A DNA stretch of 64,000 nucleotides from Streptomyces sp. NBC_00236 (GTDB taxonomy: Bacteria > Actinomycetota > Actinomycetes > Streptomycetales > Streptomycetaceae): NCBI RefSeq assembly GCF_036195045.1, contig NZ_CP108100.1, positions 5,952,001-6,016,000 of the forward strand. Reading direction: 5' to 3'. Of the stretch, positions 2 through 64,000 are shown one piece after another. The number at the start of each line of letters is the position of its first letter. Within the stretch, counting starts at the first letter, position 1. The translations under genes were made by a program, and so were the position numbers. The notes beneath the pieces are model-generated. The model was not told the DNA's origin. It was given only the letters and a program-made list of their open reading frames with translations, and searched no databases.

Positions 2-610
2 CACCGTGAAGATCTCCTGGAAGGCGCGAAGCGCTGTCTGCTGGAGAAGGGCTTCGCCCGAACGAGCGCCCGGGACATCGTGGCGGCATCCGGAACCGCC
101 CTGGCGTCCATCGGGTACCACTACGGTTCCAAGGACGCCCTGCTGGTTCAGGCCTACGTGCAGGCGATGCAGGAGTGGGCGGACGAGTTCGGTCCGGGCA
201 CCGCGATCGGGGCCGATCTCGAATCCGCGTCGTCGCCGATCGAGCGCTTCGAGCTGGTCTGGAACCGCATCGTCGAGATCTTCCCCGAGCGCAAACCCCT
301 CTGGGCGCTGAGCGTGGAGGTCGCCGTGCATGCGGAGGACCTGCCGCAGATGCGCGAAGGTCTCTCCAGGGCCCAGCCGTTCGGCTGGTCGGCGCTGGTG
401 GCGCTCTTCCATGGCGTGGACGAGAGCGAGGTCGACGAGCAGATGGCGGTCACCCTCGGCCGGTTCTACGCCGCCCTGCTCAACGGTGTGATGTCGCTGT
501 GGCTGTTCTCACCGGAGACCGCGCCCTCGGGGCGTGACCTGGCCGAGGCGATGAGGGCGATCCTGGTACTCCATCAGGGTGCCGCGGCCGGTGCGGGCCC
601 GGCTGTCTGA
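2..610 (+). CDS. TetR-family transcriptional regulator, 5'-truncated by window edge
   Basis: The reading frame is open from base 2 and ends with TGA at 608-610, so the start codon lies outside the window. The visible N-terminal part has the TetR helix-turn-helix: a helix ending EKGFARTSARDIV, then a recognition-helix region with GTALASIGYHYGSKDALL, where the YHYGSKDAL stretch is the family signature (usually YxHFxSKxxL). About 200 residues are visible, close to the usual TetR length, so only a few N-terminal residues are missing. The remainder is an all-helical ligand-binding domain without recognisable specificity. It is convergent with the PqqD-like gene. Such proteins are usually local repressors; the target cannot be read from the protein, although a dyad at 1125-1151 is a nearby operator candidate. 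Family assignment is secure, role is inference. Confidence 0.9.
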   Translation, partial: HREDLLEGAKRCLLEKGFARTSARDIVAASGTALASIGYHYGSKDALLVQAYVQAMQEWADEFGPGTAIGADLESASSPIERFELVWNRIVEIFPERKPLWALSVEVAVHAEDLPQMREGLSRAQPFGWSALVALFHGVDESEVDEQMAVTLGRFYAALLNGVMSLWLFSPETAPSGRDLAEAMRAILVLHQGAAAGAGPAV

Positions 611-1341: not shown

Positions 1342-2106
1342 TCACGTTCCGACCGTCAGCGCGCTCGTGCGGGCGCGGATCAGGTCGAGGACCGGGGACA
1401 CTTGGGAGTCGAGGAAGAAGTGGCCGCCGGGGAACACCTTCAGCTCGAACGAGCCCGTGGTGTGCTCGCGCCACGCAGCCGCCTCGTCGACCGTCACCTG
1501 CTGATCGGTGTCACCGACGAGCGCCACGACGTCCAGACCGAGCGGCGGCCCCGGCCGGTAGCGGTAGGTCTCCGCGGCCTTGTAGTCGCTGCGGATCGCC
1601 GGAAGGATCATGCGCAGGATCTCGGGATCGCCGAGCACCGCGGCGTCCGTGCCGCTCAGCTGGGTGATGTCGGCGATCAGGCGGTCGTCGTCCGCCAGAT
1701 GCACGCGCTCGTCGCGCACCCGGGAGGGTGCCCGGCGGCCGGAGGCGAACAGCGTCCCCGGTGAGGTCCCCGCGGCCTCCAGCCGGCGGGCCACCTCGAA
1801 CGCGAGCGTGGCTCCCATGCTGTGGCCGAACAGGGTCAGGGGCAGGTCCTTCCAGGGGCCCAGCTCCTCCACGACCAGATCGGCGAGTTCCTCGATGTCC
1901 TCGACGCAGGGTTCCTGCCTCCGGTCCTGGCGGCCCGGGTACTGGATCGCGAGAACGTCGATCGCCGGGGACAGCGCACGGGCCACCGGGAAGTAGTAGG
2001 TGGCCGATCCGCCCGCGTGCGGGAAGCAGACCAGGCGGGTGCGTGCCCCGGGGGCCGGATGGAAACGCCGGATCCAGGGTCCGGTCTCCCGTGAGTCGTC
2101 CCTCAT
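1342..2106 (-). CDS. Type II thioesterase (stand-alone, PKS editing)
   Basis: A 254-residue alpha/beta hydrolase of the type II thioesterase family that accompanies PKS and NRPS systems and removes wrong or stalled acyl groups from carrier proteins. Seen in the sequence: LVCFPHAGGSA near residue 27 (oxyanion region), the nucleophile elbow GHSMGA with Ser96, a GDTD motif for the acid, and PGGHFFL with the catalytic His near the C-terminus. Length is standard for the family. The ATG start overlaps the stop of the preceding micro-ORF frame (TGATG), and an AAGGA site lies about 12 bases upstream, so it is probably co-translated with the carboxylase subunits. It acts in trans and is not expected to release the macrolactam, which would need a C-terminal thioesterase on the last PKS. 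Confidence 0.93.
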   Translation of the reverse strand: MRDDSRETGPWIRRFHPAPGARTRLVCFPHAGGSATYYFPVARALSPAIDVLAIQYPGRQDRRQEPCVEDIEELADLVVEELGPWKDLPLTLFGHSMGATLAFEVARRLEAAGTSPGTLFASGRRAPSRVRDERVHLADDDRLIADITQLSGTDAAVLGDPEILRMILPAIRSDYKAAETYRYRPGPPLGLDVVALVGDTDQQVTVDEAAAWREHTTGSFELKVFPGGHFFLDSQVSPVLDLIRARTSALTVGT

Positions 2107-2470: not shown

Positions 2471-4081
2471 TCAGGTCGGGGGGTTGCCGTGCTTGCGGGC
2501 CGGGACGGGCGCGTCCTTGGTCCGCAGCATCGCCAGGGAACGCACCAGCACCGCGCGGGTCTCGGCCGGATCGATCACGTCGTCGACCAGGCCGCGCTCG
2601 GCCGCGTAGTACGGGTGCATCAGCTCCTGCTGGTACTCCTTGATCCGCTGCTCGCGAGCCGCCGCGGGATCCGGCGCGGCGGCGATCTCCCGGCGGAAGA
2701 CGATGTTCGCCGCGCCCTCCGCGCCCATCACCGCGATCTCGTTGGTCGGCCACGCGAAGGACAGGTCGGCTCCGATGGAACGCGAGTCCATCACGATGTA
2801 CGCCCCGCCGTACGCCTTGCGCAGGATGACCTGGACGCGGGGGACGGTCGCGTCGCAGTAGGCGTAGAGCAGCTTCGCGCCGTGCCGAATGATGCCCTGG
2901 TGCTCCTGGTCGGTGCCCGGCAGGAAGCCGGGCACGTCGACGAGGGTGATCAGGGGGATGCTGAACGCGTCGCAGGTCTGGACGAACCGCGCCGCCTTCT
3001 CCGAGGCGTGGATGTCCAGCACTCCGGCCTGCGACGCGGGCTGGTTCGCCACGATGCCGACCGTGTGGCCGTCCAGCCGGGCGAGCGCACAGATGATGTT
3101 GGTGGCCCACTGGGCGTGGACCTCGAAGAAGTCCTCGTCGTCGACGATCTCCCGGATCACCGCGCGCATGTCGTACGACTGGTTGGCATGATGCGGAACC
3201 AGGCTCAACAGCGCTTCGCACCGCCGGTCCGCGGGGTCGTCGGTCGGTGCCTCGGGCGGGAGTTCGCGGTTGTTCGCGGGCAGCAGGGAGAGCAGGTGCC
3301 TGACTTCGTCCAGGCACTCCGCCTCGTCGTCGTACACGAAGCCGGCCGCGCCGGAGACCGTCCCGTGGACCTCCGCCCCACCGAGCTGCTCGTGCGTCAC
3401 GCGTTCGTTCGTGACGGCCTGGACCACATCCGGCCCGGTGATGTACATCTGCGAGATGTCCCGCACCATGAAGACGAAATCGGTGAGCGCCGGCGAGTAG
3501 GTGGCACCACCCGCGCACGGCCCGAGGATCACGCTGATCTGGGGGATCACCCCGGAGGCCCGCACATTGCGGCGGAAGATCCCGCCGTATCCGGCGAGCG
3601 CCGTCACGCCCTCCTGGATCCGGGCCCCGGCACCGTCGCTCAGCCCCACCAACGGCGCGCCGGACGAGATCGCCAGGTCCATCACCTTGTGGATCTTCTG
3701 CGCGTGCGCCTCGCCCAGCGAGCCACCGAAGACCCTGAAGTCATGCGCGTACGCGAACACCGTACGTCCGTGCACCAGGCCCCATCCGGTGATCACCCCG
3801 TCCCCGCTCGGCCGCCGGTGCTCCAGGCCGAAGCCCGTGGACCGATGCCGCCGCAGCGACTCCACCTCCTGGAACGTCCCCGCGTCGAAGAGCAGCTCCA
3901 GCCGTTCGGGGGCGGTCAACTTGCCCCGTGCGTGCTGCTGTTCCGTGGAGCGCGGGCCCATCCCCTCGCGCGCCGCCCTCTTCAGCTCCGCCGCCTGCGC
4001 CACCAGTGAGCGCAGATCGGGCTGGGACTCCGGGGCGTTGTCACCACCGTTGTTCGACGGGGCGTCCTGAATCACTGTCAT
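2471..4081 (-). CDS. pccB: Acyl-CoA carboxylase carboxyltransferase (beta) subunit
   Basis: About 536 residues, the usual length for actinobacterial PccB/AccD. Two crotonase-like halves are evident. The N-terminal half has GLVHGRTVFAYAHDFRVFGG and a glycine pair in GAGARIQEG; the C-terminal half has DVPGFLPGTDQEHQGIIRHG and the AYGGAYIVM loop. It transfers carboxyl from biotin to acetyl-, propionyl- or butyryl-CoA, giving extender units. A methylmalonyl-specific AT occurs in PKS 5, so propionyl-CoA carboxylation is plausible, but substrate cannot be fixed by eye. Two start codons are in frame; ATG at 4081 (MTVIQD) follows GGTGGGACC and is preferred to the ATG at 4093, which lacks a good ribosome site. 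It leads the operon with the epsilon subunit and thioesterase and is divergent from the acyltransferase gene. Confidence 0.93.
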   Translation of the reverse strand: MTVIQDAPSNNGGDNAPESQPDLRSLVAQAAELKRAAREGMGPRSTEQQHARGKLTAPERLELLFDAGTFQEVESLRRHRSTGFGLEHRRPSGDGVITGWGLVHGRTVFAYAHDFRVFGGSLGEAHAQKIHKVMDLAISSGAPLVGLSDGAGARIQEGVTALAGYGGIFRRNVRASGVIPQISVILGPCAGGATYSPALTDFVFMVRDISQMYITGPDVVQAVTNERVTHEQLGGAEVHGTVSGAAGFVYDDEAECLDEVRHLLSLLPANNRELPPEAPTDDPADRRCEALLSLVPHHANQSYDMRAVIREIVDDEDFFEVHAQWATNIICALARLDGHTVGIVANQPASQAGVLDIHASEKAARFVQTCDAFSIPLITLVDVPGFLPGTDQEHQGIIRHGAKLLYAYCDATVPRVQVILRKAYGGAYIVMDSRSIGADLSFAWPTNEIAVMGAEGAANIVFRREIAAAPDPAAAREQRIKEYQQELMHPYYAAERGLVDDVIDPAETRAVLVRSLAMLRTKDAPVPARKHGNPPT

Positions 4082-4513
4082 GGTCCCACCCATCCAAGGC
4101 TCGACGGTGCGCGGTGGATGCTCGCACCGGCGCCGGAATCGGGATAACCGTCCCTCATTGAAGACCCGGTGCGATCCCCGTGCCCTCCCCTAAGTTGTCC
4201 GGCACCCCCCTAAGGGCTGTCCCGACAGCCGTCGCCCTCTCGCGGCCCCCACCCGCCGGCCCGGCCGCTCCGGACCCAGGACCCTTAGGGGCTCTACGGG
4301 GCCTCGCCGGGTGGAGGCGAAGTGCCTTTACACCGCCTGGTCGACGAGGTGTCCGGTGTCCAGTGCGGCCTGCTGTCAACGGAATTGGGACCCGGGAACC
4401 TTAGGGGTTTTGGCGGCGGCGGGCAGACCTCAGCCTGGATCCCGACCGGTTCGGAAACGAAGCGCCCGACGGGCTGATCGCTCAGGGAACGACGTGCTGA
4501 AGGGCAGGACACC
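4082..4513. promoter_or_regulatory. Divergent promoter region with repeated TTAGGGG sites
   Basis: 432 bp without a gene between the carboxylase and acyltransferase starts. It contains four copies of a CCCTTAGGGG-like element. Two point left toward the carboxylase gene (4216-4207 and 4195-4187, 20 bp apart). Two point right: 4282-4291, followed at once by CTCTACGGGG at 4292-4301, and 4399-4407. Similar elements occur before PKS 1, PKS 3 and the ACP operon. The arrangement suggests binding of one activator on both sides. The two small open frames across this region (4155-4379 and 4180-4404) have no protein-like features. Exact -10/-35 boxes were not assigned. Confidence 0.55.
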
Positions 4514-5461
4514 ATGAGACACGACTTCCGCACCGGCGGTGCGCTGGTCTTTCCCGGCATGAGCCCCACGCGCTTCCAGGACTCGGCCAAGTTCATGCTG
4601 ATCAACCCGGTGGCCCGGCGGCTCGTCGCCGAGGCCGACGACGCGCTCGGCTACTCGCTCGTCGACCGTTACCGCGACACCGAAGGTGACTACAGCGAAT
4701 ACGCCCAGGTCGCCTTCCTCGTCAACTGCCTGGCCCTCGCCGCCTGGGCGCAGGACCGGTTCGACCCGCAGCCCGGGCTCTGCGTCGGCCCCAGCTTCGG
4801 CGGCAAGACCGCGGCGGCCCACACGGGCGTCCTGGACTTCGCCGACGCGGTCCGCCTGACCGCCGGCTGGGCCAGGCTCCTGGAGTCCTGGTTCGCCGAG
4901 AACCACCGCGATGTCGTCACCCACTCCTTCACGCGCGTCCCGGGCTCCGAACTGGACCGGGTGCTCGCCGAACTCGACGAGCGCGGTGAGTGGTACGAGA
5001 TCGCCTGCCACGTCGACGAGGACTTCTACATGGTGTCGTTGCGCGAGTCCGTGCTGGAGTGGCTCGGCAAGCGGCTGCGTTCGGTGGGCGGGCTGCCGCT
5101 GTACACGATGCGGCCGCCCATGCACGCGAGCGTCTTCGCCCCTCTGCGCCGGCGGGCCGAGGAAGAGCTCTTCGCCCCGCTGACCTTCCACGATCCCCGG
5201 ATACCGGTCGTCGCCGACCAGGACGGCACCCTGCTGACCACGGGCGACCAGGTCCGCACCATGCTGCTGGACGGCTTCGTCCGTCCGGTCCGTTGGCCCG
5301 CCGTCGTCGACGCCCTGCGCCGCAACGGCGTCGGCAAGCTGTACGTCGCAGGCCCCGACAGCCTCTTCGGCCGCGTTCCCGTCACCACCGGGAACTTCGA
5401 CGTCGTCGCCGTGGACCCGAGGACGGCGCTCCAGCCCGTCCGCCGCAGCCTGGCCGCCTGA
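4514..5461 (+). CDS. Discrete acyltransferase (VinK-like, starter transfer)
   Basis: A 315-residue stand-alone acyltransferase of the malonyl-CoA:ACP transacylase fold. Visible features: N-terminal GALVFPGMSP (the usual FPGQG with Gln replaced), nucleophile elbow GPSFGG with Ser94 instead of the common GHSxG, and His204 in PPMHASVF, where extender-unit ATs have HAFH or YASH. The missing His before the Ser and altered pocket argue against a normal malonyl transferase. In vicenistatin-type macrolactam clusters the equivalent enzyme (VinK) moves an aminoacyl-beta-amino acyl group from a stand-alone ACP to the loading ACP of the first PKS. The window holds both ACPs, which supports that role. ATG 4514 follows AGGACACC. 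It heads the rightward run with the isomerase-like and P450 genes. Family is secure; the donor is inferred. Confidence 0.85.
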   Translation: MRHDFRTGGALVFPGMSPTRFQDSAKFMLINPVARRLVAEADDALGYSLVDRYRDTEGDYSEYAQVAFLVNCLALAAWAQDRFDPQPGLCVGPSFGGKTAAAHTGVLDFADAVRLTAGWARLLESWFAENHRDVVTHSFTRVPGSELDRVLAELDERGEWYEIACHVDEDFYMVSLRESVLEWLGKRLRSVGGLPLYTMRPPMHASVFAPLRRRAEEELFAPLTFHDPRIPVVADQDGTLLTTGDQVRTMLLDGFVRPVRWPAVVDALRRNGVGKLYVAGPDSLFGRVPVTTGNFDVVAVDPRTALQPVRRSLAA

Positions 5462-5578: not shown

Positions 5579-6442
5579 ATGACCCTTCTGACCAGGACCG
5601 ACCTGGGATTTGCCTATCTGCACCTGACCGGGTCGGTCTGGCAGGAGCCGGTGCGGTACACGCTGGAGGAACGGCTGGCGGCGCTGGCCGAGAACAACTG
5701 CGTCTCGATGGGAATGAGCGTCGAGGAGCTGGAGGCGTTCCTCGCCGACCACTCGGCGGACAAGCTGCGTGGCCTGCTCTCCGAGTACGGGGTCCGGCTG
5801 CACGAGCTGGAGGTCCTGTTCGGCTGGAACGCCGGACCGGAGGAGAGCGGCCCCGCCCTGGAGTCGGAAACCCGTCTCTTCGAGCTGGCGGGGCTGGCCG
5901 GCATTCCCGCAGTCAAGTCCTGCGCCGTCTACCCGACCGGCGTGGAGATGCCGCCCACCGAGGTCCTCGCCGAGCGCTTCGGCGCGATGTGCGACCGCGC
6001 GGCCGCACGTGGGCTGAACGTCTCCCTCGAAGCGATGGCCGTGATGCCCGGCTTCACCTACCAGGTCGCCTCCGACGTCATCGTCGCCGCCGACCGCCCC
6101 AACGCCGGTCTGCTCATCGACATGTGGCACCTCTTCCGTGACCCGACGGGCGTCGGCTCGGTCGATCAGCTCACGGGCGCGCAGATCGCGGGCGTGGAAT
6201 TCGGCGACGCCCCGCGCACCCCGTCCCCCGACGTCATGAACGAGGTACTCAGCGGCCGCCTGCTGCCCGGTGACGGCGATTTCGACATCACCGGACTGCT
6301 GCGCACGCTGGACGCCAAGGGCGTCGACGTCACCCCGTCCGTGGAGGTCCTCTCCGCCGACCTGCGCGACCTGCCGCTCAGCGAGAACATCGCCCGCACC
6401 GCCGCCGCCGTGCGCGCCGCCCTCGAGAAGGCCCGTGGCTGA
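5579..6442 (+). CDS. Sugar-phosphate isomerase/epimerase-like TIM-barrel protein
   Basis: A 287-residue protein of the xylose-isomerase-like TIM-barrel superfamily. Likely metal ligands are present in the usual order: Glu151 (SLEAM), Asp181 and His184 (LLIDMWHL), the VEFGDAPR strand, and Glu256 (PSVEVLS). It should therefore be a metal-dependent isomerase, epimerase, aldolase or dehydratase-like enzyme rather than a degenerate copy. No sugar biosynthesis or glycosyltransferase gene is visible, so a sugar substrate is not indicated by context. It lies 117 bp after the acyltransferase and 48 bp before the P450, with GAGAGGTACACC upstream of its ATG, and is probably co-transcribed with them. No role for such an enzyme in beta-amino acid macrolactam assembly is obvious; a tailoring or precursor-rearranging role is possible but unsupported. 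Confidence 0.8.
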   Translation: MTLLTRTDLGFAYLHLTGSVWQEPVRYTLEERLAALAENNCVSMGMSVEELEAFLADHSADKLRGLLSEYGVRLHELEVLFGWNAGPEESGPALESETRLFELAGLAGIPAVKSCAVYPTGVEMPPTEVLAERFGAMCDRAAARGLNVSLEAMAVMPGFTYQVASDVIVAADRPNAGLLIDMWHLFRDPTGVGSVDQLTGAQIAGVEFGDAPRTPSPDVMNEVLSGRLLPGDGDFDITGLLRTLDAKGVDVTPSVEVLSADLRDLPLSENIARTAAAVRAALEKARG

Positions 6443-6490: not shown

Positions 6491-7720
6491 ATGTCCGATC
6501 TCGTCGACGCATGTCCGCACGCCCAGCCCCGCCCCTTCCCCCTGGAGCGCACCGGCTGCCCCCTGGACCCCGCACCGGAGTACGCGGTGCTGCGGGAGAC
6601 CGAGCCGGTCTCCCGGGTCAAGCTCAGGTTCAACGGCCGTGAGGCCTGGCTCCTCACCCGGTACGAGGACGTCCGGCAGATGCTGGTCGACCCCCGGTTC
6701 AGCTCCAACATGGCCGACCCCGGCTACCCGCTCCAGTTCCACTTCCCCATGGAACTGCTCGGCAAGGTCAAGCCCGCGCTGCTCCACATGGACCCGCCGG
6801 AGCACACCGCGCACCGCATGATGCTGATGCCGGAGCTCAGTGTGAAGCGCGTCGAGGCGATGCGGCCGCGCACCCAGGAGATCGTCGACGAGTGCATCGA
6901 CGCGATGCTGGAGCGGGGCGGCCCGGTCGACCTGGTGTCCATGCTGTCGATGCCCGTGCCGTCCATCGGCATGTGCGAGCTGACCGGCGTCCCGCACGAG
7001 TCGCGCGACCTGTTCCACCGCTGGGTCACCCTCCTCGTCACCCAGGGCAGCGCCGAGGAGCACGCCACGGCCAATGCCGAGGTCGAGGTGCTCCTCTACG
7101 AGCTCATCGCCGAGCGCCAGAAGAACCCCGGGGACGACCTGATCAGCAGTCTGCTCCAGCGCAACGGGGAGAAGAACGAGCTGGAACCGGCCGACATCAG
7201 CGCACTCGTACGGGCCATGATCGCCGCCGGCCACGAGAGCACCGTCAACGGCATCTCCATCGGCGCCCTCGTTCTCCTCCAGCACCCCGAGCAGGCCGAC
7301 TGGCTCCGCGAGCACCCCGAGCTGTCGGGCCAGGCCGTCGACGAGCTGTCGCGCTACTCCAGCATCTCCGATCACGGCACCGTCCGCGTCGCGCTGGAGG
7401 ACGCCGAGATCGGCGGCCAGCTGATCCGCAAGGGCGAGGGCGTCATCTGCTCGCTCTCCGCCTCCAATCACGACCCGGCGGTCTTCAAGGACCCCAACAC
7501 CCTGGACCTGACCCGCCGCGAGGCACGCCACAACGTGGCGTTCGGCTTCGGACGCCACCAGTGCGCGGGCCAGATGCTCGTCCGCATGCAGCTGGAGGTC
7601 GTCTTCACGACCCTGCTGCGGCGCATCCCCGGACTGCGTCTCGACGCGGCCCTGGGCGAACTGCCCTTCAAGGCCAACGCCCTCATCGACGGCGTCCACG
7701 AGCTGCCGGTGACCTGGTAA
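6491..7720 (+). CDS. Cytochrome P450 monooxygenase
   Basis: A 409-residue soluble bacterial class I P450, typical in length for actinomycete tailoring hydroxylases. Motifs: I-helix AGHEST with Thr251 (proton relay), K-helix ExxR at Glu285 and Arg288, and the heme loop FGFGRHQCAG with Cys358 as thiolate ligand. The ATG at 6491 follows AGAAGGAACC; an in-frame GTG at 6443 has no comparable ribosome site and adds a non-conserved tail. The ferredoxin gene follows 11 bases downstream, and a ferredoxin reductase sits at 34450, giving a full electron chain inside the cluster. The likely role is hydroxylation or epoxidation of the macrolactam or its polyene. Site of oxidation cannot be predicted from sequence alone. 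Confidence 0.96.
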   Translation: MSDLVDACPHAQPRPFPLERTGCPLDPAPEYAVLRETEPVSRVKLRFNGREAWLLTRYEDVRQMLVDPRFSSNMADPGYPLQFHFPMELLGKVKPALLHMDPPEHTAHRMMLMPELSVKRVEAMRPRTQEIVDECIDAMLERGGPVDLVSMLSMPVPSIGMCELTGVPHESRDLFHRWVTLLVTQGSAEEHATANAEVEVLLYELIAERQKNPGDDLISSLLQRNGEKNELEPADISALVRAMIAAGHESTVNGISIGALVLLQHPEQADWLREHPELSGQAVDELSRYSSISDHGTVRVALEDAEIGGQLIRKGEGVICSLSASNHDPAVFKDPNTLDLTRREARHNVAFGFGRHQCAGQMLVRMQLEVVFTTLLRRIPGLRLDAALGELPFKANALIDGVHELPVTW

Positions 7721-7731
7721 AGGAGTTTTCC

Positions 7732-7926
7732 ATGCGTGTGATCGTCGACAAAGAGCGTTGTGTCGCGGCCGGTTCCTGTGTGATCACCTCGCCCGCCGTC
7801 TTCGACCAGAACGACGAGGACGGCAAGGTCGTACTGCTGATCGAGACCCCGGACGAGAAGCTGCGCGAGGAAGTCCTGGAGTCCGTCAACGTGTGCCCGG
7901 TCGCGGCGCTGAGCGTCGCCGACTAG
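7732..7926 (+). CDS. [3Fe-4S] ferredoxin, P450 partner
   Basis: A 64-residue ferredoxin. Cysteines at 10, 16 and 55, with Pro after the last (NVCPVAAL), fit the single [3Fe-4S] type common beside Streptomyces P450 genes; the position that would hold a fourth ligand is not Cys. The acidic middle (DQNDEDGKV) is typical of P450-docking ferredoxins. ATG 7732 follows AAAGGAGTTTTCC, 11 bases after the P450 stop, so the two are surely one transcript. It should pass single electrons from a flavin reductase, possibly the one at 34450, to the P450. Confidence 0.95.
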   Translation: MRVIVDKERCVAAGSCVITSPAVFDQNDEDGKVVLLIETPDEKLREEVLESVNVCPVAALSVAD

Positions 7927-8095: not shown

Positions 8096-9631
8096 GTGGA
8101 GAATCCGAACACCACCTGCGCGCCGACGGCGCACGGGAACGGCGGGACGGTCCATTCCCTGCTCGACGACGCGGCCGCGGACACCCCGGACGGGCAGTGT
8201 CTGCGCGACGCCGCCGGTGAGGTGACGTACCGGCGGATGGCCGAACTCAGTCACGGCTTCGCCGTCTGGCTCAGCGAGCAGGGCGCGGCACGCGGTGACC
8301 GGCTGCTCGTGCAGATCCCCAGCCGGCGCGAGCTCGTGGCCATGGTCTACGGGGCCTCGCGCCTCGGTGTGATCCTGGTACCGCTCAACCCCGCGATGAA
8401 GGAGTACCACCTCCGGTCCGTCATCGAGGACGCCGAACCCTCCCTGATCATCGGCGACGGCCCCACCACCGAGGTCCTCGGCCGGGCCGCCGCTCTCCCC
8501 GTGCACGACCTCACGGCGATCTGGCCGCACGTCGAGGAGGCCGCGGGACGCCCGGCGCCCCCGCCCCTCGGCATCAGCGCGGACGACACCGCGTTCCTCG
8601 TCTACACCTCCGGCAGCACCGCCGCCCCCAAGGCGGTCGTGTGCCCGCACGCGCAGGTCACCTTCGCCTCCCGCGCCATCCAGGAGGTGCTGGGCTACCG
8701 CCCCGACGACGTCGTCTTCTGCCGCTTCCCGATCTCCTGGGACTACGGCCTGTACAAGGTGCTGCTCGCCTGCCTCGGACGCTCCCAACTGGTCCTGGAC
8801 GGCGGCGAGTCCGACCTCGTACTGCTGCGGCGGATGCGCGAGACCGGTGCCACCGTGGTCCCCATCGTGCCGTCGCTGGCCACGATGATCGGCACCCTCG
8901 CCGCGCGCGACGCCCAGGACCCGCCCCCCGTGAGGATGTTCACCAACACCGGCGCGGCGCTTCCCGACCACGCGGTCACCGCCCTGCGCGAGGCGTTCCC
9001 CGGAGTGCAGGTGGTCCGCCAGTTCGGCCAGACCGAGTGCAAGCGCGTCAGCATCATGCCGCCGGACGAGGAACACCAGCGCCCCGGGTCGGTGGGGCTG
9101 CCGCTCCCCGGCACCACCGTCCTGATCCTCGACGCCGAGGGCCGGCCCCTCCCGGCGGGCGAGACCGGCGAGATCGTCGCCGCGGGACCGCACGTCATGC
9201 CCGGCTACTGGCGTCGCCCCGAACTCTCGGCGCGCACCTTCCGCCCCGACCCGGACAGCGGGGCGCTGCGGCTGCACACCGGCGACTACGGCCGGCTCGA
9301 CGAGGACGGCTACCTCTACTTCGAGGGCCGCCGCGACGACATGTTCAAGCGCAAGGGCATCCGGATGAGCACGGTGGAGATCGAGGCCGCCGCCATGGAC
9401 ATACCCGGCGTGCGCACCGCCACGGCGCTGCCGCCCACCGACACCCGCGACCTGGTCATCTTCGCCGAGACGGATCTGGCTCCCCACACCGTTCTCAAGG
9501 AACTGGCCGAGCGTCTGGAGTCGGCCAAGGTGCCCGCCCTGTGCCGCGTCCTGGACGAACTGCCGCTGAGCCTGCACGGGAAGAACGCCCGGCAGGCACT
9601 GACCGAGATGATCGACGGGGAAGGGCGATGA
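8096..9631 (+). CDS. Beta-amino acid AMP ligase (VinN-like, 3-methylaspartate)
   Basis: A 511-residue ANL-family ligase. The P-loop is YTSGSTAAPKAV, the A5-like motif is FGQTECKRVS, and the later HTGDYGRLDEDG and FKRKGIRMS motifs are intact. The enzyme should adenylate a beta-amino acid and load it on the stand-alone ACP. From memory of VinN (vicenistatin), Asp230 binds the amino group and Lys330/Arg331 the extra carboxylate of 3-methylaspartate. Here Asp216 (SWDYGLYK) and Lys316/Arg317 (TECKR) occur with exactly the same 100-residue spacing, so 3-methylaspartate is the favoured substrate. The GTG at 8096 (MENPNTT) is chosen because the upstream in-frame extension to 7937 crosses the terminator and is proline-rich. 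Its stop overlaps the decarboxylase start (ATGA). Confidence 0.9.
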   Translation: MENPNTTCAPTAHGNGGTVHSLLDDAAADTPDGQCLRDAAGEVTYRRMAELSHGFAVWLSEQGAARGDRLLVQIPSRRELVAMVYGASRLGVILVPLNPAMKEYHLRSVIEDAEPSLIIGDGPTTEVLGRAAALPVHDLTAIWPHVEEAAGRPAPPPLGISADDTAFLVYTSGSTAAPKAVVCPHAQVTFASRAIQEVLGYRPDDVVFCRFPISWDYGLYKVLLACLGRSQLVLDGGESDLVLLRRMRETGATVVPIVPSLATMIGTLAARDAQDPPPVRMFTNTGAALPDHAVTALREAFPGVQVVRQFGQTECKRVSIMPPDEEHQRPGSVGLPLPGTTVLILDAEGRPLPAGETGEIVAAGPHVMPGYWRRPELSARTFRPDPDSGALRLHTGDYGRLDEDGYLYFEGRRDDMFKRKGIRMSTVEIEAAAMDIPGVRTATALPPTDTRDLVIFAETDLAPHTVLKELAERLESAKVPALCRVLDELPLSLHGKNARQALTEMIDGEGR

Positions 9632-10890
9632 GCCGATACCAGGCACTGGCCGAACGCTTCGGCACACCTCTGTACGTGTACGACCTCGACGAGGTCGACG
9701 CGGCACGTCAGCAGCTGCTCGAAGCCCTGCCCGAGGAGTTCACCCTCTTCTACGCCCTCAAGGCCAACCCGCACCCGGACCTGGTCCGGGCCCTGCGCGA
9801 GGGCGAAGGCCGCCACTGCCGGCCCGAGATCAGCTCCACCGGCGAACTGGAGTCCGCCCTCGCCGCAGGGTTCCGCGGCGAGGACTGCCTCTACACCGGC
9901 CCCGGCAAGACCCCGGGCGAGCTGGCCGAGGCGATCCGGCTGGGAGTCCGCGTCTTCTCCACCGACTCGGTCTCCGACGTCCGCCACGTGGCCGACGCGG
10001 CCCTGGCGAACGGTGCGACCGCCGACTGCCTGCTGCGCGTCAACAGCGCCACCGCCAGCGCCACCAGCAGCATCCGGATGACCGGCACCCCCTCGCAGTT
10101 CGGCTTCGACAGCGAGACCCTGGCCGGTGTCCTCCCCGAACTGCGCACGATCGCGGGCATCCGCATCACGGGGATGCACTTCTTCCCGCTGAGCAACGCC
10201 AAGGACGAGGAGAGCCTCGTCGGCGAGTTCCGGCACACCATCGAGCTGGCCGCCCGCCTCCAGGACGAACTGGACCTCCCCCTGCGCTTCCTCGACATCG
10301 GCGGAGGCTTCACCGTGCCCTACGCCGTTCCCGGTGGCCGGGGCGCGTACCCCAAGCTGCGCGGCGAACTCGCGGCCGCGCTGGACACGCACTTCCCCCA
10401 GTGGCGGACCGAGGGCCCCGAGCTCGCCTGCGAGTCGGGCCGCTACCTCGTCGGGGCGAGCGGCACGCTGGTCGCCTCGGTCAGCAACGTCAAGGTCAGC
10501 CGCGGCCGCAAGTTCGTCATCCTCGACGCGGGCATCAACACCTTCGGCGGCATGTCGGGCCTCGGCCGGCTGCTGCCCGTCGCCGTCGGGACCGAATCGG
10601 GGGAGTGCGTCGAATCCGCCAGTCTGGTGGGCCCGTTGTGCACCCCCGGTGACATCCTCGGCCGCGAGATAGACCTGCCGGCCCTCGCCCCGGGCGATCT
10701 GGTGACGATCCCCAACGCCGGTGCCTACGGGCCGACCGCCAGCCTGCTGATGTTCCTGGGCCGCCCGGCCCCCACGGAGGTGGTGGTGCGGGGCGACACG
10801 GTGCTGTCCGTCTCCCGGATCGAGCACAGCCGCTCCTACGCGGCCGTGGACGGAACGTCCGCGCGCACCGCTGCGGGAGAGGCGGAGTGA
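9628..10890 (+). CDS. PLP-dependent decarboxylase (VinO-like)
   Basis: A 420-residue fold-type III PLP enzyme of the diaminopimelate/ornithine decarboxylase family. An alanine-racemase-like barrel begins with FYALKANPHP, whose Lys is the PLP anchor; the phosphate-binding glycines are in DIGGGF; the C-terminal beta-domain has ESGRYLVGASG and the late GAYGPTAS motif. In vicenistatin-type pathways the relative VinO decarboxylates 3-methylaspartyl bound to the ACP, giving the 3-aminoisobutyryl starter. Its location between the ligase and the mutase genes, overlapping both (ATGA, GTGA), supports that step rather than free amino acid decarboxylation. GGGAAGGG lies just before the ATG. Confidence 0.9.
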   Translation: MSRYQALAERFGTPLYVYDLDEVDAARQQLLEALPEEFTLFYALKANPHPDLVRALREGEGRHCRPEISSTGELESALAAGFRGEDCLYTGPGKTPGELAEAIRLGVRVFSTDSVSDVRHVADAALANGATADCLLRVNSATASATSSIRMTGTPSQFGFDSETLAGVLPELRTIAGIRITGMHFFPLSNAKDEESLVGEFRHTIELAARLQDELDLPLRFLDIGGGFTVPYAVPGGRGAYPKLRGELAAALDTHFPQWRTEGPELACESGRYLVGASGTLVASVSNVKVSRGRKFVILDAGINTFGGMSGLGRLLPVAVGTESGECVESASLVGPLCTPGDILGREIDLPALAPGDLVTIPNAGAYGPTASLLMFLGRPAPTEVVVRGDTVLSVSRIEHSRSYAAVDGTSARTAAGEAE

Positions 10891-11387
10891 GCGCCGGCCT
10901 GATGCACGGCGCCACGGACACCGTGAGCCCGGCGGGCGGCCGACGCGGCACCGTGGTCGTCACGACCGTGGCCTCCGACTCGCACACCTGGAACCTCGTC
11001 TTCCTCCAGCTGCTCATCGAGGAGCTGGGCTACGAGGTCATCAACCTCGGCCCGTGCGTCCCGGACCAGGTCCTCATCGACGCCTGCCGGGAGACGGCCC
11101 CCGACCTGGTGGTGATCAGCAGCGTCAACGGGCACGGCCACCAGGACGGCCTGCGCGTCATCGACGCGCTGCGCGCCTGCGGTGAACTGGCCTCGACCCC
11201 GGTGGTCATCGGCGGCAAGCTCGGCGTCGCGGGGCAGCAGAGCGACGCGGCGATCGGCGAGCTGATGTCCGCCGGATTCGATGCCGTCTTCGACGACTCC
11301 TCCACCACCACGCGGGAGTTCAGCCGGTTCGTCGGCGCGCTGCCCGCGGCCGCCCGTCCCCTGGAACGTACCGAGGTCGTGGCGTGA
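10887..11387 (+). CDS. Methylaspartate (glutamate) mutase S subunit, B12-binding
   Basis: A 166-residue cobalamin-binding protein, the small subunit of glutamate mutase, which converts L-glutamate to (2S,3S)-3-methylaspartate with adenosyl-B12. The cobalt-ligand motif is present as Asp31-x-His33 in ASDSHTWN; Asn36 stands where the classic DxHxxG motif has Gly. Further B12-binding segments follow: VVISSVNGHG and PVVIGGKLGV. The GTG start overlaps the decarboxylase stop, and the GTGA at its own end starts the E subunit. The first 20 residues are not conserved; ATG at 10902 is an alternative start. It works only as a complex with the next gene product. Confidence 0.92.
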   Translation: MSAGLMHGATDTVSPAGGRRGTVVVTTVASDSHTWNLVFLQLLIEELGYEVINLGPCVPDQVLIDACRETAPDLVVISSVNGHGHQDGLRVIDALRACGELASTPVVIGGKLGVAGQQSDAAIGELMSAGFDAVFDDSSTTTREFSRFVGALPAAARPLERTEVVA

Positions 11388-12742
11388 GACCGGGCGCGCA
11401 CCCGCTCCGGCGGACGGCCGAGGGCGCGCGCCCGGTGGACTTCGGAGCCTTCGTCCGCGCGAGAAGCCGGACCGGCGACCTGGTGGTCCAGCCCCGCATG
11501 GGGTTCAGCGACCCCGGCACCATGCGCGCGGGGCTGGCCGCCACCCGCGCCGCCGACGCCACGACGGTCGGCACCATCACCCTCGACAGCTATACGAGGG
11601 TCGGTGAACTCGCCTCCGTGGACTCGGCCCTGAGATCCGGTGCGAAGCTCAACGGATACCCCATCGTCACCTACGACCGGGCCGTGACCGGGCAGGTCCT
11701 CGCGGGCATCAGGGACGAGACGTTCCCGGTCCAGGTCAGGCACGGATCGGCGGTTCCCGGGGACATCTTCGCCGCGCTGCGCAGGACGCTGATCAATGCC
11801 ACGGAGGGCGGCCCCGTCTCCTACTGCCTCCCCTACGGACGGACTCCGCTGGACGAGTCCGTACGGAACTGGGTCCGCTGCACCGAGGATTTCGCGCAGC
11901 TGCGGGAATCGGGAGTGGAACCCCATCTGGAGACGTTCGGCGGCTGCATGCTGGGCCAATTGTGCCCACCCAGTCAGCTGGTGGCGATCAGTCTGCTCGA
12001 AGCGCTGTTCTTCTGCCAGCACGGAATACGCAGTGTGTCGCTCAGTTATGCCCAGCAGACCCATCCGGGCCAGGACCGGGAAGCGGTCGCGGCTCTGCGG
12101 AGGCTCTGCGGCGAATTGCTTCCGACACCCAACTGGCACGTGGTCATCTACGCCTACATGGGCGTGTACCCGACCACGGACGAGGGGGCCTACCGGCTGC
12201 TCGACGAGGCGGCACGGCTCGCTGTCACCTCCGGGTCGGAGCGGCTCATCGTGAAGACCGTGGCGGAGTCCCGCCGGATCCCGACCGTCGCGGAGAACGT
12301 CGCCGCACTCGAGGCGGCGGCCCTGACCGCGAGGGCGGCGCGGGCCGGCGCCCCTGCCCCCGCCGAGTCCGACTCGCAGACATACCTGGAGGCCAGAGCG
12401 CTGATCGAGGGCGTACTCGAACTGTCCACCGACATCGGGCACGCATTCGAACTCGCCTTCAGGCAGGGGGCCCTGGACATCCCCTACTGCCTGCACCCGG
12501 ACAACCACGGCCGGGCCCGCAGCTACATCGACGGCGACGGCCGGCTGCGGTGGGCAGGCATCGGGAGGCTGCCGCTGGCCGGGCTCGTCGGCCCGGCCCG
12601 CACCCGGGAGGTCACCGCGTCGGGACTGATCGCCGACCTCTCCTACGTACAAAGGGCGTTCGACAGGACGGCGCTGGAATCCGGTGGTGTCCGGGACCGT
12701 GACCGCGCGGATATCGCGCCGGCGGATTCCGGTTCCTCTTAG
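11384..12742 (+). CDS. Methylaspartate (glutamate) mutase E subunit
   Basis: A 452-residue catalytic TIM-barrel subunit of glutamate mutase. Typical family segments are visible: QPRMGFSDPG near the start, DSYTRVGE, LNGYPIVTYD (substrate loop), RHGSAVPGD, ETFGGCMLGQLCPPS, and IPYCLHPDN near the end. With the S subunit it makes 3-methylaspartate, the precursor of a 3-aminoisobutyrate starter, as VinI does in vicenistatin. The GTG start overlaps the S stop, so the two subunits should be made in equal amounts. It is the last gene before PKS 1, 110 bp away. The C-terminal 30 residues are acidic and not conserved-looking. Annotation as glutamate mutase for primary metabolism is unlikely in this setting. 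Confidence 0.92.
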   Translation: MRPGAHPLRRTAEGARPVDFGAFVRARSRTGDLVVQPRMGFSDPGTMRAGLAATRAADATTVGTITLDSYTRVGELASVDSALRSGAKLNGYPIVTYDRAVTGQVLAGIRDETFPVQVRHGSAVPGDIFAALRRTLINATEGGPVSYCLPYGRTPLDESVRNWVRCTEDFAQLRESGVEPHLETFGGCMLGQLCPPSQLVAISLLEALFFCQHGIRSVSLSYAQQTHPGQDREAVAALRRLCGELLPTPNWHVVIYAYMGVYPTTDEGAYRLLDEAARLAVTSGSERLIVKTVAESRRIPTVAENVAALEAAALTARAARAGAPAPAESDSQTYLEARALIEGVLELSTDIGHAFELAFRQGALDIPYCLHPDNHGRARSYIDGDGRLRWAGIGRLPLAGLVGPARTREVTASGLIADLSYVQRAFDRTALESGGVRDRDRADIAPADSGSS

Positions 12743-12852: not shown

Positions 12853-29181
<16,329 letters not shown>

Positions 29182-29188
29182 GGACATC

Positions 29189-32100
29189 ATGGAAGCATCT
29201 GTAGAGCAGCTGGTCGCGGCCCTCCGCTCGACCATGGTCGAGAACGAACGCCTGCGGTCGGCCAACGACCGCCTCACCGGCGACGCCACCGAGCCGATTG
29301 CGATCGTGGGGATGGCGTGTCGTTTTCCGGGTGGTGTGGGTTCTCCGGCCGAGTTGTGGGATCTGGTGGTGGAGGGCCGGGACGGTGTGTCGGGTTTTCC
29401 GGTGGATCGTGGGTGGGATGTGGAGGGTCTTTACGATCCGGAGCCGGGGAAGCCGAATCGTACGGTGACGCGTGAGGGTGGGTTTCTGTACGAGGCGGCT
29501 GATTTCGATGCCGGGGTGTTCGGGATCTCGCCGCGTGAGGCGTTGGGGATGGATCCGCAGCAGCGGTTGTTGCTGGAGGCGTCCTGGGAGGCGGTGGAGA
29601 GCGCGGGCATCGATCCCCTCTCCCTGAAGGGCAGCCGGACCGGCGTCTTCGCCGGTGTCATGTACCACGACTACGGACCGGGTACGAGCGACGGCAGCCT
29701 CGTCACCGGCCGCGTGGCCTTCACGCTCGGCCTCGAAGGCCCCGCCGTCACGGTGGACACCGCATGCTCTTCGTCCCTCGTCGCCCTCCACTGGGCAGGA
29801 CAGGCACTGCGCCGAGGCGACTGCTCGATGGCGCTGGTCGGTGGCGTGACGGTGATGACGACGCCGGACATGTTCCTCTACTTCAGCCATCAGCGGGGTA
29901 TGGCCAAGGACGGCCGTTGCAAGTCCTTCTCCGCCGAGGCGGACGGCACCGGCTGCTCGGAGGGCGTCGGCGTCCTCATGGTCGAGCGCCTCTCGGACGC
30001 CCAGCGGAACGGTCACCCGATTCTCGCGGTGGTCCGGGGAAGCGCGATCAACCAGGACGGCGCGTCGAGCGGGATGACCACCCCCAACGGTCCGTCGCAG
30101 CAGCGCGTGATCCGCGCGGCGCTGGAGGACGCCGGGATCACGACCACGGACGTGGATCTGGTGGAGGCGCACGGGACCGGGACGCGGCTGGGTGATCCGA
30201 TCGAGGCGCAGGCGTTGTTGGCGACGTATGGGCAGGGGCGCCCGGAGGGTGATCCGTTGTGGCTGGGCTCGCTGAAGTCGAACCTGGGCCACACCCAGGC
30301 GGCTGCGGGTGTGGGCGGGGTGATCAAGGCGGTGCAGGCGATCCGGCACGGTGTGCTGCCCAAGTCCCTTCACTCCGAGACACGTTCGCCGCATGTGGAC
30401 TGGGACGCGGGTGCGGTGGAGTTGTTGACGGAGTCGCGGGTGTGGCCGGTGCGGGATCGTCCGCGTCGGGTGGGTGTGTCGTCGTTCGGTCTGAGTGGGA
30501 CGAATGCGCATGTGATTGTGGAGCAGGCTCCGGTGGTGGAGGAGCCGGGGTCGGAATCTGTGGTGGAGGTTCCGGTGGTGCCGGTGGTGTTGTCGGCGCG
30601 GAGTGAGGCGGGGTTGTCCGCCCAGGCGGCGAAGCTGCTGGAGCAGTTGGGGGAGTCCTCTTCCGCGTTGTTGGATGTGGGTTTTTCGTCGGTGGTGTCG
30701 CGTGCGGTGCTGGAGCATCGTGCGGTGGTTGCGGTCGCTGACCGTGCGGAGCTGGTGCGGGGTCTGACCGCGTTGGCCGGGGGTGAGCTGTCACCTTCGG
30801 TGGTACGGGGGGCTGCGCGGCCGGCGGGTGCTACGGCGTTCCTGTTCACGGGCCAGGGTGCGCAACGACTCGGGATGGGCCGGGAGTTGTATGAGGCCTA
30901 TCCGGTGTTCGCGGAGGCCTTCGACGCGGTCGTGGGGGAGTTGGATGGCCGGCTGGGGCGTTCGTTGCGTGAGGTGGTGTGGGGTGAGGATGCGGAGCTG
31001 CTGAGCGGGACGATGTTTGCCCAGGCGGGGTTGTTCGCGGTGGAGACGGCGTTGTTCCGGTTGGTGGAGTCGTGGGGGGTGCGTCCGGACTTCCTGGTGG
31101 GGCATTCGGTGGGTGAGATTGCGGCTGCGCATGTGTCCGGGGCGTTGTCCCTGGCCGATGCGGCTGAGTTGGTGGTGGCGCGTGGTCGGTTGATGCAGGC
31201 GTTGCCTTCTGGTGGGTCGATGGTGGCGGTGGAGGCGACGGAGGCTGAGGTGCTTCCGTTGTTGAACGGTGAGGTGGGGATCGCGGCGGTCAACGGGCCG
31301 CGTTCGGTCGTGGTCTCGGGTACGGAAGCGGCGGTTGCTGATCTGGTGGGGAAGTTTGCCGGTCAGGGGCGCAGGACGAGTGTGCTGCGGGTGTCGCACG
31401 CCTTCCACTCGCCGTTGATGGAGCCGATGCTTTCCGACTTCGGGGCGGTGGTCGCCGGGCTGTCGTTCGGTGTTCCGTCGATTCCTGTGGTGTCGGGTGT
31501 GTCGGGGGATCTGGCGTCGGGTTGGGGTTCGGCGGAGTACTGGGTGCGGCACGTCCGTGAGGCGGTCCGCTTCGCGGATGCGGTGTCGTTCGTTGCGTCG
31601 CGGGGTGTGACGTCGTTCGTCGAGATCGGTCCGGACGGTGTGCTGAGTGGGATGGCGCAGCAGTCGGTGGAGGCGGAGTCGGCGGTCTTCGTTCCGTTGG
31701 TGCGCAAGGGGCGTCCGGAGGTCGCCTCCACTGTGTTGGCGTTGGGGCAGCTGCACGTGAGTGGCACTTCGGTGGAGTGGGCGCGGTTCTTCGAGGGTTC
31801 GGGTGCTCGTCGTGTTGATCTGCCGACGTATGCCTTTCAGCGTGAGCGGTTTTGGTTGGAGTGTGTGGGTGGTGGGGATGCGGGTGGTTTGGGGCAGGTG
31901 GTGGTTGATCATCCGGTGTTGGGTGCGTCGGTGGAGTTGCCGGATTCGGGTGGTGTGGTGTTGACGGGGCGGTTGTCGGTGGAGGGGATGGGGTGGTTGG
32001 CGGATCATGTGGTGTTGGGGTCGGTGTTGTTGCCGGGGGCGGCGTTTGTGGAGTTGGTGGTGCGGGCTGGGGATGAGGTGGGTTGTGGGGTGGTGGAGGA

Positions 32101-34375
32101 GTTGACGTTGCGGGCGCCGTTGGTTGTTCCGGAGCGTGGTGGTGTGGCGTTGCGGGTGGTGGTGGGTGGTTTGGACGAGGTGGGTTCTCGTTCGGTGCGG
32201 GTGCATTCGCGTCGGGAGGGTGCGGGTTCGGGTGCGGGGTGGGTGTTGCATGCGGATGGTGTGGTGGGTGCGGGTGAGTCCGTGCCGGCGTTCGACCTCA
32301 CCGAATGGCCCCCGCCCGGCGCGACCGCCGTACGAACGGACGACGCCTACGAGCTGCTCCACAAACAGGGTTACGTCTACGGCCCCGTCTTCCGGGGGCT
32401 CAAAGCCGCGTGGCGGCGAGGGGACGACGTCTTCGCCGAGGTCGAGCTGCCCGAGCAGGCGCACGGAGACGCCGAACGGTTTGGTCTCCACCCCGCCCTG
32501 CTCGACGCGACCATGCACGCGCTGGGAGTCGGTGAGGACGTCACGGGCGACGAGCCGACCGAGCTTCCCTTCACCTGGACGAACGTGTCCCTGCACGCTG
32601 CCGGGGCCCGCTCGCTGCGGGTGAGGCTCTCCCCTCAGGGCGTCAGCAGTCGCACGCTGAGCCTGGCGGACCAGGACGGCGCCCCTGTGGCCACGATCGG
32701 CGGACTCATGTTCCGTCCGGTGTCGGTGGAGCAGTTGGCTGTTGGGTCGGGTGTGGGTGGTGGGTTGCATGAGGTGGTGTGGCGGCCGTTGGTGGCGGCT
32801 GGGGTTGCTGGTGGTGATGTGCCGGTGTCGAGGGTGTTTGAGGTGCCGGTTCCGGTGGTGGGTGTGGATCCGGTGGTGGGTGTGCGGTCGGTGTTGGGTG
32901 GGGTGTTGGAGGCGGTTCAGGGGTGGTTGGGGGCTGATGAGGCGGGTCGGTTGGTGGTGGTGACGCGGGGTGCGGTGGCGGTTGCGGGGGATGTGGGTGT
33001 GGATGTGTGTCAGGCGCCGGTGTGGGGGTTGGTGCGGGCGGCTGAGGCGGAGAATCCGGGTCGGTTTGTGTTGGTGGATGTGGATGCGGGGGGTGGTTCG
33101 TTCGCGGATGTGGCGGGTGTGGTGTTGGGGTCGGGTGAGCCGGAGGTTGCGGTGCGTGGGGGTGAGGTCCTGGTCCCGCGTCTGGTCGAGGTGTCTGCCG
33201 GTGGCGCGACGGTGGAGAGGGTGCCGGACGGTGTGGTGTTGGTGACGGGTGGTACGGGTGGTTTGGGTGGGTTGGTGGCGCGGCATTTGGTGGAGGTGTA
33301 TGGGGTGCGTCGTTTGGTGTTGGCGGGGCGTCGTGGTCCGGGGGCTCCTGGGGTTGATGAGTTGTGTGGTGTGTTGCGTGGGTTGGGTGCGGAGGTGTCG
33401 GTGGTGGCGTGTGATATGTCGGACCGGTCTGCGGTGGTGGGTCTGGTGGAGGGTGTGGGTGCTGGTCTGGTGGGTGTGGTGCATGCGGCGGGTGCGGGTG
33501 ACAACGGTTTGGTGGGGTCGATGGATGGGGCCCGGTTGGATCGGGTGTTGGGTGCGAAGGCGGATGGTGCTTGGTATGTGCATGAGTTGACGCGTGAGCG
33601 GGATCTTGCGTTCTTCGTGATGTTCTCGTCGGCGGGTGGTTCGGTGCTGGCTGCGGGTCAGGGGAACTATGCGGCGGCGAATGTGTTCCTGGACGCGTTG
33701 GCGGTGCAGCGGCGGTCGGAGGGTTTGCCGGCCACCTCCCTCGCCTACGGGTTGTGGGACGTCGCCACAGGCCTGACCGAGGCCATCGAAGACGATGCCC
33801 GTCTCATGGCCGCACGCGGCCTGCCCGCTCTCGCTCCCGCCGACGCGCTGCGGCTCTTCGACGCGGGCCTGCGTTCCGGACGGCCGGCGCTGGTGCCGCT
33901 CGCCGTCGACGTACCGACCCTGAAGGCGAAGCCCGGTGCGCTGCACTCCCTTCTGCGGGACCTGGTCCTCACCGAGGCCGGCCCCGTGGTCCGGAGCCGC
34001 ACGAAGAGCGCCGATCCCGCCGCGCTGGTCACCCGTCTCGCCGGGCTGAGCACCGAGGACCGCGAACAGGCCCTTCTCGACCTGGTACGGAGCCACGCTG
34101 CCGCCGTTCTGGGGCACTCGGGCGCCGAAGCGGTCCCGGCCGAGCGCGGATTCCTCGACATCGGATTCGACTCGCTCACCGCACTGGAACTCAGGAGCCG
34201 CCTGGGCGAGGTGACCGGCTGCCGACTGGCACCGACCCTGATCTTCGACTACCCGTCCGCCGCCGAGCTCGCCACGCACCTGCGGCAGGCGCTCTTCGGA
34301 GAGGACACCCCCGCGGACGACCTCAGCGCGGCCACCGCGGACGAGCTGTTCGACATTCTCGACGGCGAAGCGTAA
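29189..34375 (+). CDS. Type I PKS 2: module 4 (KS-AT-DH-KR-ACP)
   Basis: 1728 residues, one module. N-terminal coiled-coil docking helix ([17 protein letters not shown]); KS Cys193; AT Ser640 with GHSVGE and HAFH, so malonyl; DH His940 in [10 protein letters not shown] with DATMH; KR Tyr1494 with the LDD position changed to GDN and no A-type Trp; ACP Ser1662. Expected product is a double bond. The C-terminus is short, ending [11 protein letters not shown] straight after the ACP, without the dimerising helix seen in PKS 3 and PKS 4. ATG 29189 follows GAGGACATC, seven bases past the PKS 1 stop. Much of the gene (29291-29620, about 30170-32280 and 32720-33735) is written in a different codon style, with TTG, GGT and GTG codons, and shares near-identical stretches with PKS 1, 3 and 5. 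Confidence 0.97.
29291..29655 (+). repeat. KS 5'-segment repeat, other copy at 41693-42057
   Basis: The first 365 bp of the PKS 2 KS match the first KS of PKS 3 with no indel and about three differences by eye, at a constant offset of 12402. The flanking KS sequence diverges at normal levels. The block is poor in C-ending codons, unlike the DNA after it. Confidence 0.9.
30391..30618 (+). repeat. KS-AT linker repeat, other copy at 63693-63920
   Basis: 228 bp appear identical between PKS 2 and the second module of PKS 5, running from the KS C-terminus through the post-KS linker. A less perfect third copy is in PKS 3 at about 42800-43025. The similarity continues at a lower level on both sides. 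Confidence 0.88.
30839..31584 (+). repeat. AT-domain repeat shared by PKS 1, 2 and 3
   Basis: The 746-bp AT core here aligns without indels to 20026-20771 (module 2) and 43256-44001 (module 5), with long identical runs, for instance around the GHSVGE motif. Weaker relatives are in module 3 (about 25020-25720) and module 7 (about 53810-54530), which resemble each other more closely. Confidence 0.9.
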
Positions 34376-34449
34376 TGCCCTCCGGGCAGACCTCGTCGGT
34401 CATGGCACCAGCTGTTGACGTGAGTACGGACCGGAGACGAGGAGCGAGT

Positions 34450-41590: not shown

Positions 41591-52147
<10,557 letters not shown>

Positions 52148-52289: not shown

Positions 52290-57149
<4,860 letters not shown>

Positions 57150-57198: not shown

Positions 57199-64000
<6,802 letters not shown>

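Follow-up and report, generated by a model that had tools for sequence, protein, structure and literature searches.

We analysed a window of 64,000 nucleotides from Streptomyces sp. NBC_00236 (contig NZ_CP108100.1, positions 5,952,001 to 6,016,000; the genome is a single contig of 8.33 Mb). With a probability that we put at roughly 0.92, the cluster that occupies it is a polyene macrolactam cluster of the piceamycin/bombyxamycin/weddellamycin type, fed by a starter relay of the vicenistatin type. The window holds most of this cluster. As its gene content and assembly logic are those of the published weddellamycin cluster, it is a further member of a described type and its starter pathway is not new. 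Genes, pocket residues, module order and motifs were read directly from the DNA. Positions are those of the window, and numbers above 64,000 lie past its end.

The assembly line consists of six polyketide synthase (PKS) genes, which encode a loading acyl carrier protein (ACP), 11 modules and a terminal thioesterase (Table 1). Modules were called from BLAST searches with single domains and from motif reading, and some gene starts were chosen by reading the sequence. Ten of the acyltransferase (AT) domains carry the motif HAFH and one, that of module 8, carries YASH. The ketoreductase (KR) of module 6 reads TGAVSATG and is devoid of its NADPH motif and of the catalytic Tyr and Asn. Read collinearly, the modules predict a 26-membered lactam with 8-CH3, C11-OH, C13=O, a C2-C9 tetraene, a C14-C23 pentaene and 24-CH3. 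Four of these features, namely the size of the ring, the ketone at C13, the hydroxyl at C11 and the methyl at C8, had been predicted before we made the comparison with the weddellamycin paper. An earlier sequence-only reading of the window had suggested that the product may be a polyene macrolactam other than vicenistatin, and this suggestion is supported. We also observed an internal repetition of the assembly line. The AT of module 4 shares 95-97% identity with the ATs of modules 5, 9 and 10 and 88% with the AT of module 11, the KR domains of modules 10 and 11 show 95-97% identity to KR4, and modules 10 and 11 have long DNA repeats in common (76-98%). The sites concerned are 29132-34375 and 43256-44185 in the window as well as L003:141-1070 and L003:3920-15172. 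We read this near-identity as a sign of recent duplication or gene conversion.

The weddellamycin cluster (wdl) of Streptomyces sp. DSS69 is described with a loading module and 11 modules, YASH in AT8, a KR6 without the Tyr and no dehydratase (DH) in module 7, and its further genes encode a P450, a ferredoxin, an isomerase, two TetR regulators, a LuxR regulator and an amidase (PMC11051340). The window cluster shares the six PKS genes, the number of modules and all three of these module features, and the starter enzymes, amidase, P450, ferredoxin, isomerase, LuxR and two TetR regulators are found in both clusters. WdlA (LuxR), WdlB, WdlE-L, WdlM1-M6, WdlO, WdlQ, WdlS and WdlT all have a counterpart, in an order that fits the letters. 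A high similarity of wdl to the clusters for bombyxamycin and piceamycin has been stated by its authors (PMC11051340), and the latter two (strains SD53 and AmelAP-1, GCA_009865135.1 for AmelAP-1) have been reported as homologous and syntenic to each other (PMC7889971). The window cluster may make one of the three known end products of this type, among which weddellamycin has the formula C27H29NO4 and a calculated [M+H]+ of m/z 432.2175 (PMC11051340).

We first took sceliphrolactam, which has the same 26-membered frame and starter, hydroxyl groups at C10 and C12 and no C8-C12 ring, as the closest product. The predicted skeleton is indeed close, being 26-membered with a 3-amino-2-methylpropionate starter. 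This product was disfavoured once the weddellamycin logic had been compared, and we now consider it highly improbable. For the sce cluster, ten modules with two methylmalonyl ATs and KRs that are all called active have been described, along with two P450s and another gene order (PMC5785472). The window cluster, in contrast, has 11 modules with a methylmalonyl AT in module 8 only and a dead KR in module 6, and its annotated open reading frames (ORFs) include a single P450 and an isomerase-like gene.

The starter genes support the assignment to the weddellamycin type from another side. The genes for the ligase, the decarboxylase and the S and E subunits of a glutamate mutase form the overlapping operon on one strand that had been claimed, each overlap measuring 4 bases. 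PKS1 begins 110 bases after the mutase E gene and its first domain is an ACP. The domain matches of the decarboxylase were scored on a longer ORF (8641-10890). For comparison we took the best 80 of the 135 loci that encode a relative of the ligase; a homologue of the decarboxylase was present in 79 of these 80 loci at 56-96% identity. Matches to NCBIfam mutase models, in the case of the S subunit to methylaspartate mutase S models, fall below the cut-offs of these models. At the site of the B12 motif, which we take to be DxHxxG, the S subunit reads D-S-H-T-W-N. VinH was matched in 70 loci, of which 68 have D[SA]HTWN. The top NCBIfam models for ligase and decarboxylase were the exosortase-A-associated pair TIGR03098/TIGR03099, again below cut-off; as a guess, that pair may perhaps also decarboxylate an ACP-bound amino diacid.

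Among the PDB chains the ligase matched VinN best, with 641.9 bits for 3wvn and 497.8 bits for 3wv4/3wv5, in which the chain is shorter; the next molecule reached 242.8 bits. A similarity of this size greatly exceeds chance. VinN is an experimentally studied 3-methylaspartate enzyme (PMC11284099). Beta-amino-acid ligases of other classes, named as tabulated in PMC11253843, scored lower (HitB, 7dq5, 157.1 bits; IdnL1, 5jjq, 139.6 bits; CmiS6, 5jjp, 115.9 bits), and ligases for 3-aminobutyrate, 3-aminononanoate and beta-Phe are thus far less similar than VinN. In an ungapped alignment to 3wvn, Asp216, Lys316 and Arg317 correspond to D230, K330 and R331 of VinN, as had been proposed, and Tyr217 and Thr285 correspond to F231 and S299. 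The numbering of the solved chain is offset by 16, and all five residues are consistent with this offset. They are the described pocket residues of VinN (PMC11253843), and Asp216, Lys316 and Arg317 therefore align inside the pocket and not outside it. By its D230/K330/R331 residues and its short beta13-beta14 loop the window ligase belongs to the VinN type.

The 100-residue spacing within this D/K/R triad had been put forward as evidence for 3-methylaspartate. The spacing is correct but the evidence is weak, as D, T, K and R (216, 285, 316 and 317) occur in all 80 loci, namely 70 with a mutase gene and 10 without one in the DNA examined. The triad alone thus cannot separate 3-methylaspartate from aspartate, and we rejected it as proof. 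At five other positions the two groups differ. All 70 mutase loci have Phe211, Trp215, Lys221 and Gln309, and 69 of them have Gln312; seven of the ten mutase-less loci, which serve as our proxy for the aspartate-type FlvN, have Leu/Ser, Phe, Gln, Met and Ile/Val/Thr at these positions. The remaining three (L034, a contig of 4.1 kb; L087, a piece of 14.7 kb; and L063, with full flanks) resemble the mutase group at the five positions and were set aside after this resemblance was seen. One of the seven kept, L078, is a contig of 15.8 kb, and a mutase gene farther away is possible there. The window ligase carries the mutase-group residue at all five positions. VinN shares Trp229, Lys235 and Gln326 (Trp215, Lys221 and Gln312 of the window ligase) and has Met at 225 and 323, so we propose only 229, 235 and 326 as markers. 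The mutase genes overlapping the ligase operon, together with Trp215, Lys221 and Gln312, indicate that the starter is derived from 3-methylaspartate, in agreement with the sequence-only reading.

It is very improbable that the starter is instead beta-alanine made from aspartate by an FlvN-type ligase, with the mutase unrelated to it. The presence of the triad in mutase-less loci and the weak use of L-Asp by VinN (PMC11284099) would fit such a starter, but the mutase genes are present and overlap the ligase operon, and at residues 211, 215, 221, 309 and 312 the window ligase agrees with the mutase loci, 70 in number, and not with seven of the ten loci that have no mutase gene. In the vicenistatin system a vinI mutant yielded 18-desmethylvicenistatin (PMC11284099). 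Furthermore, the supported clade of the ligase consists of mutase-bearing loci: in a FastTree tree it falls into a clade of seven with support 1.0, and the other six members all carry mutase genes. When this tree was rooted on the seven mutase-less ligases, these seven were not isolated, and the clade of the other 74 was present with a support of only 0.38.

The remaining parts of the 3-methylaspartate relay were also identified. The discrete acyltransferase, the second ligase and the stand-alone ACP are all as claimed, and a homologue of the ACP VinL was matched in 60 of the 80 ligase loci. We take the PDB entries 5czc, 8k4r and 3wmr, which are listed under generic names, to be VinK, VinM and VinJ. 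The relay had been described as visible except for the final amidase. The other relay enzymes do lie in the window, but the cluster also has its amidase: a genome search for the proline iminopeptidase family located the gene beyond the window end, separated from PKS6 by 55 bases, and gave it 252.8 bits compared to 73.8 bits for the next genome site. The starter relay is thus complete, and all eight enzyme types of the vicenistatin relay, VinH-O (PMC11284099, PMC5785472), are present next to a different PKS. No sugar or glycosyltransferase gene was found among the ORFs scanned from about -3 to 80 kb, a scan that did not take in every ORF.

From these genes we infer substrates, chemistry and product as follows. 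The glutamate mutase would convert glutamate to 3-methylaspartate, which the VinN-type ligase would load onto the VinL-type ACP and the VinO-type enzyme would decarboxylate there to 3-amino-2-methylpropionyl-ACP. The VinM-type ligase would cap the amine with an amino acid and the VinK-type transferase would pass the capped (dipeptidyl) starter to the loading ACP of PKS1. Working in gene order, the 11 modules would extend the chain with malonyl units, ten in all, and a single methylmalonyl unit, with module 8 giving the 8-CH3, the dead KR6 leaving the C13 ketone and the missing DH7 leaving the C11-OH. The VinJ-type amidase would take the cap off and the PKS6 thioesterase would close the 26-membered ring (N and 25 C). 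P450, ferredoxin and isomerase-like protein would then carry out an oxidation, probably followed by closure of a five-membered ring between C8 and C12. Here the P450 may generate a C8=C9-C10=O acceptor that is attacked by C12, flanked by two carbonyls, with the isomerase assisting. Both the C8-C12 bond in the window product and the step that closes it are proposals of ours. In weddellamycin the ketones are at C10 and C13, and for piceamycin a 2-cyclopentenone is described (PMC11051340), and an NMR (nuclear magnetic resonance) table of piceamycin includes 11-OH (PMC7889971). Deletion of wdlF, wdlG or wdlH abolished the product (PMC11051340). In cremimycin and hitachimycin the C8-C12 bond has been proposed to depend on a P450 and on isomerase-type enzymes; these two systems use isomerases of two types and another two oxidoreductases (PMC11284099), whereas we found a single isomerase and P450 together with one ferredoxin and its reductase.

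We then considered the occurrence of the cluster elsewhere. In five of the 80 ligase loci (L015-L018 and L020) ten homologues were observed in window order at 79-98% identity (thioesterase, carboxyltransferase, VinK, isomerase, P450, ferredoxin, VinN, VinO, VinH and VinI); a further locus, L019, is cut by a contig end. From a sample of 246 genomes of the genus, four (G166, G092, G005 and G158) were examined over 100 kb each. All four have the cluster with the same module order and a VinL homologue (73-88%), and the protein identity of the genes besides a transposase-derived ORF is 62-98%. That the cluster is orphan or decayed and gives no product is hardly credible: the transposase-derived ORF does lie inside it, but no internal stop interrupts the PKS genes or any of the 19 further genes that were read, and the cluster is kept in those four genomes, with this ORF at the same place and 54-76% identity.

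Several observations weigh against the assignment to the weddellamycin type or its details. The match to wdl rests on the text of the paper and the ORFs read here, because no DNA of the wdl, bombyxamycin or piceamycin clusters was aligned; DSS69, SD53 and AmelAP-1 were not among the 80 ligase loci or the 42 compared proteins, and no search was aimed at them. The piceamycin cluster of AmelAP-1 is reported to have 12 modules, where the published piceamycin cluster has 11, and its type II thioesterase is reported as duplicated (PMC7889971); the window cluster differs in both respects. In modules 5, 8 and 9 the DHs deviate from the strict HxxxGxxxxP pattern; when aligned they retain the His and the Pro, and the Gly is found one place earlier. 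The D/K/R triad does not discriminate and VinN accepts L-Asp weakly (PMC11284099), as discussed above. Among the PKS frames and domains of G005 and G158, some were read as split, doubled or missing: PKS1 of G005 is read as two frames and its module 9 in PKS5 has a KR that looks incomplete and an ACP that was not found, and some domains are doubled in both genomes.

The ORF between the genes of the VinM-type ligase and the VinL-type ACP was considered as the amidase and rejected on account of its transposase-like helix-turn-helix (HTH) domains. The label IS630 is our own reading of these domains. Relatives were found in 87 of the 246 genomes (E <= 1e-20), and among the matches listed only six genomes, including that of the window, reach 71% identity. 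We compared the neighbours at seven loci (L095, which is the window, to L101); VinL and VinM adjoin in all of them except L101. The alignment took in the window, L096-L100 and L101, and left out L102, L103, L105 and L109. Compared to L101, whose motifs look ordinary, and assuming our assignment of the catalytic triad, the second Asp is lost in the window and L096 and the first Asp in L099 and L100; L097 and L098 keep the catalytic letters and not their context. In five pairs with the window, residues 1-140 gave dN/dS ratios of 0.10-0.25 and the remaining residues 0.24-0.46. Conservation is thus higher in the HTH half, but as the second range also stays below 1, the catalytic half is under some constraint as well. 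We suggest, tentatively, that the ORF could be a domesticated transposase with a DNA-binding half under purifying selection and a drifting catalytic half, fixed between VinL and VinM, and that it may regulate the cluster.

Of the other genes in Table 1, the carboxyltransferase is syntenic in five of the 80 ligase loci and was not found in the 100 kb regions of G005 and G158. The isomerase-like protein shows 44% identity to a protein of Streptomyces sp. MJ635-86F5, the cremimycin strain (PMC11253843). In G158 the LuxR match is at the opposite end.

Table 1. Features of the macrolactam cluster in window coordinates (KS, ketosynthase; mal, malonyl; PLP, pyridoxal phosphate; MFS, major facilitator superfamily; aa, amino acids).
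Feature	Position	Strand	Evidence
TetR regulator (WdlB counterpart)	80..610	+	TetR_N on open frame 2-610
Type II thioesterase	1342..2106	-	PF00975
Acyl-CoA carboxyltransferase subunit, probably extender supply	2471..4093	-	PF01039
VinK-type discrete acyltransferase (WdlE counterpart)	4514..5461	+	VinK_C 110.9 bits; PDB 5czc 434.3 bits
TIM-barrel protein resembling sugar phosphate isomerases/epimerases (WdlF counterpart), proposed to form the ring	5579..6442	+	PF01261
Cytochrome P450 (WdlG counterpart)	6491..7720	+	PF00067, PDB P450s; start codon chosen by reading
Ferredoxin (WdlH counterpart)	7732..7926	+	Fer4 domains
VinN-type 3-methylaspartate ACP ligase (WdlI counterpart)	8096..9631	+	PDB 3wvn, pocket tests, tree
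VinO-type PLP decarboxylase, ACP-bound 3-methylaspartate (WdlJ counterpart)	9628..10890	+	Orn_Arg_deC_N, Orn_DAP_Arg_deC
VinH-type glutamate mutase S, B12-binding (WdlK or WdlL counterpart)	10887..11387	+	PF02310
VinI-type glutamate mutase E (WdlK or WdlL counterpart)	11384..12742	+	PF06368, 259 bits
PKS1, loading ACP and modules 1-3, each KS-AT(mal)-DH-KR-ACP	12853..29181	+	domain BLAST, motifs
PKS2, module 4, KS-AT(mal)-DH-KR-ACP	29132..34375	+	Pfam; true start probably inside ORF
Ferredoxin reductase	34372..35652	+	Pyr_redox_2, Reductase_C
TetR regulator (WdlO counterpart)	35704..36588	+	TetR_C_1, TetR_N
MFS transporter	36685..38280	-	PF07690
VinM-type aminoacyl ligase, adds protecting amino acid (WdlQ counterpart)	38411..39961	-	PDB 8k4r, 635 bits
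IS630-transposase-derived ORF, altered DDE motifs	39930..40832	-	HTH_23/29/32, neighbours, alignment, dN/dS
VinL-type stand-alone ACP, 78 aa, LDSL motif (WdlS counterpart)	40844..41080	-	PP-binding
PKS3, modules 5-6	41591..52147	+	domain BLAST, motifs
PKS4, module 7, without DH	52290..57149	+	domain BLAST, motifs
PKS5, modules 8 (methylmalonyl AT, YASH) and 9	57199..64000, continuing to 67923 past window	+	domain BLAST, motifs
PKS6, modules 10-11 and thioesterase	ends 79172, past window		domain BLAST, motifs
VinJ-type amidase (WdlT counterpart)	79228-80172, about 15 kb past window end		PDB 3wmr, 480 bits

Only the transposase-derived gene and the marker residues may be new, and no dedicated literature search was made on either. 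Trp229, Lys235 and Gln326 (VinN numbering) are candidate markers for 3-methylaspartate, and the D/K/R triad is no fingerprint of it. The authors of PMC10662134 count 435 genomes with macrolactam clusters in their own survey. The window adds a complete and apparently intact cluster to a small antibiotic family, of which weddellamycin is reported to be active against methicillin-resistant Staphylococcus aureus (PMC11051340). With one isomerase, one P450 and one ferredoxin, it would offer a compact system for studying the formation of the C8-C12 ring.

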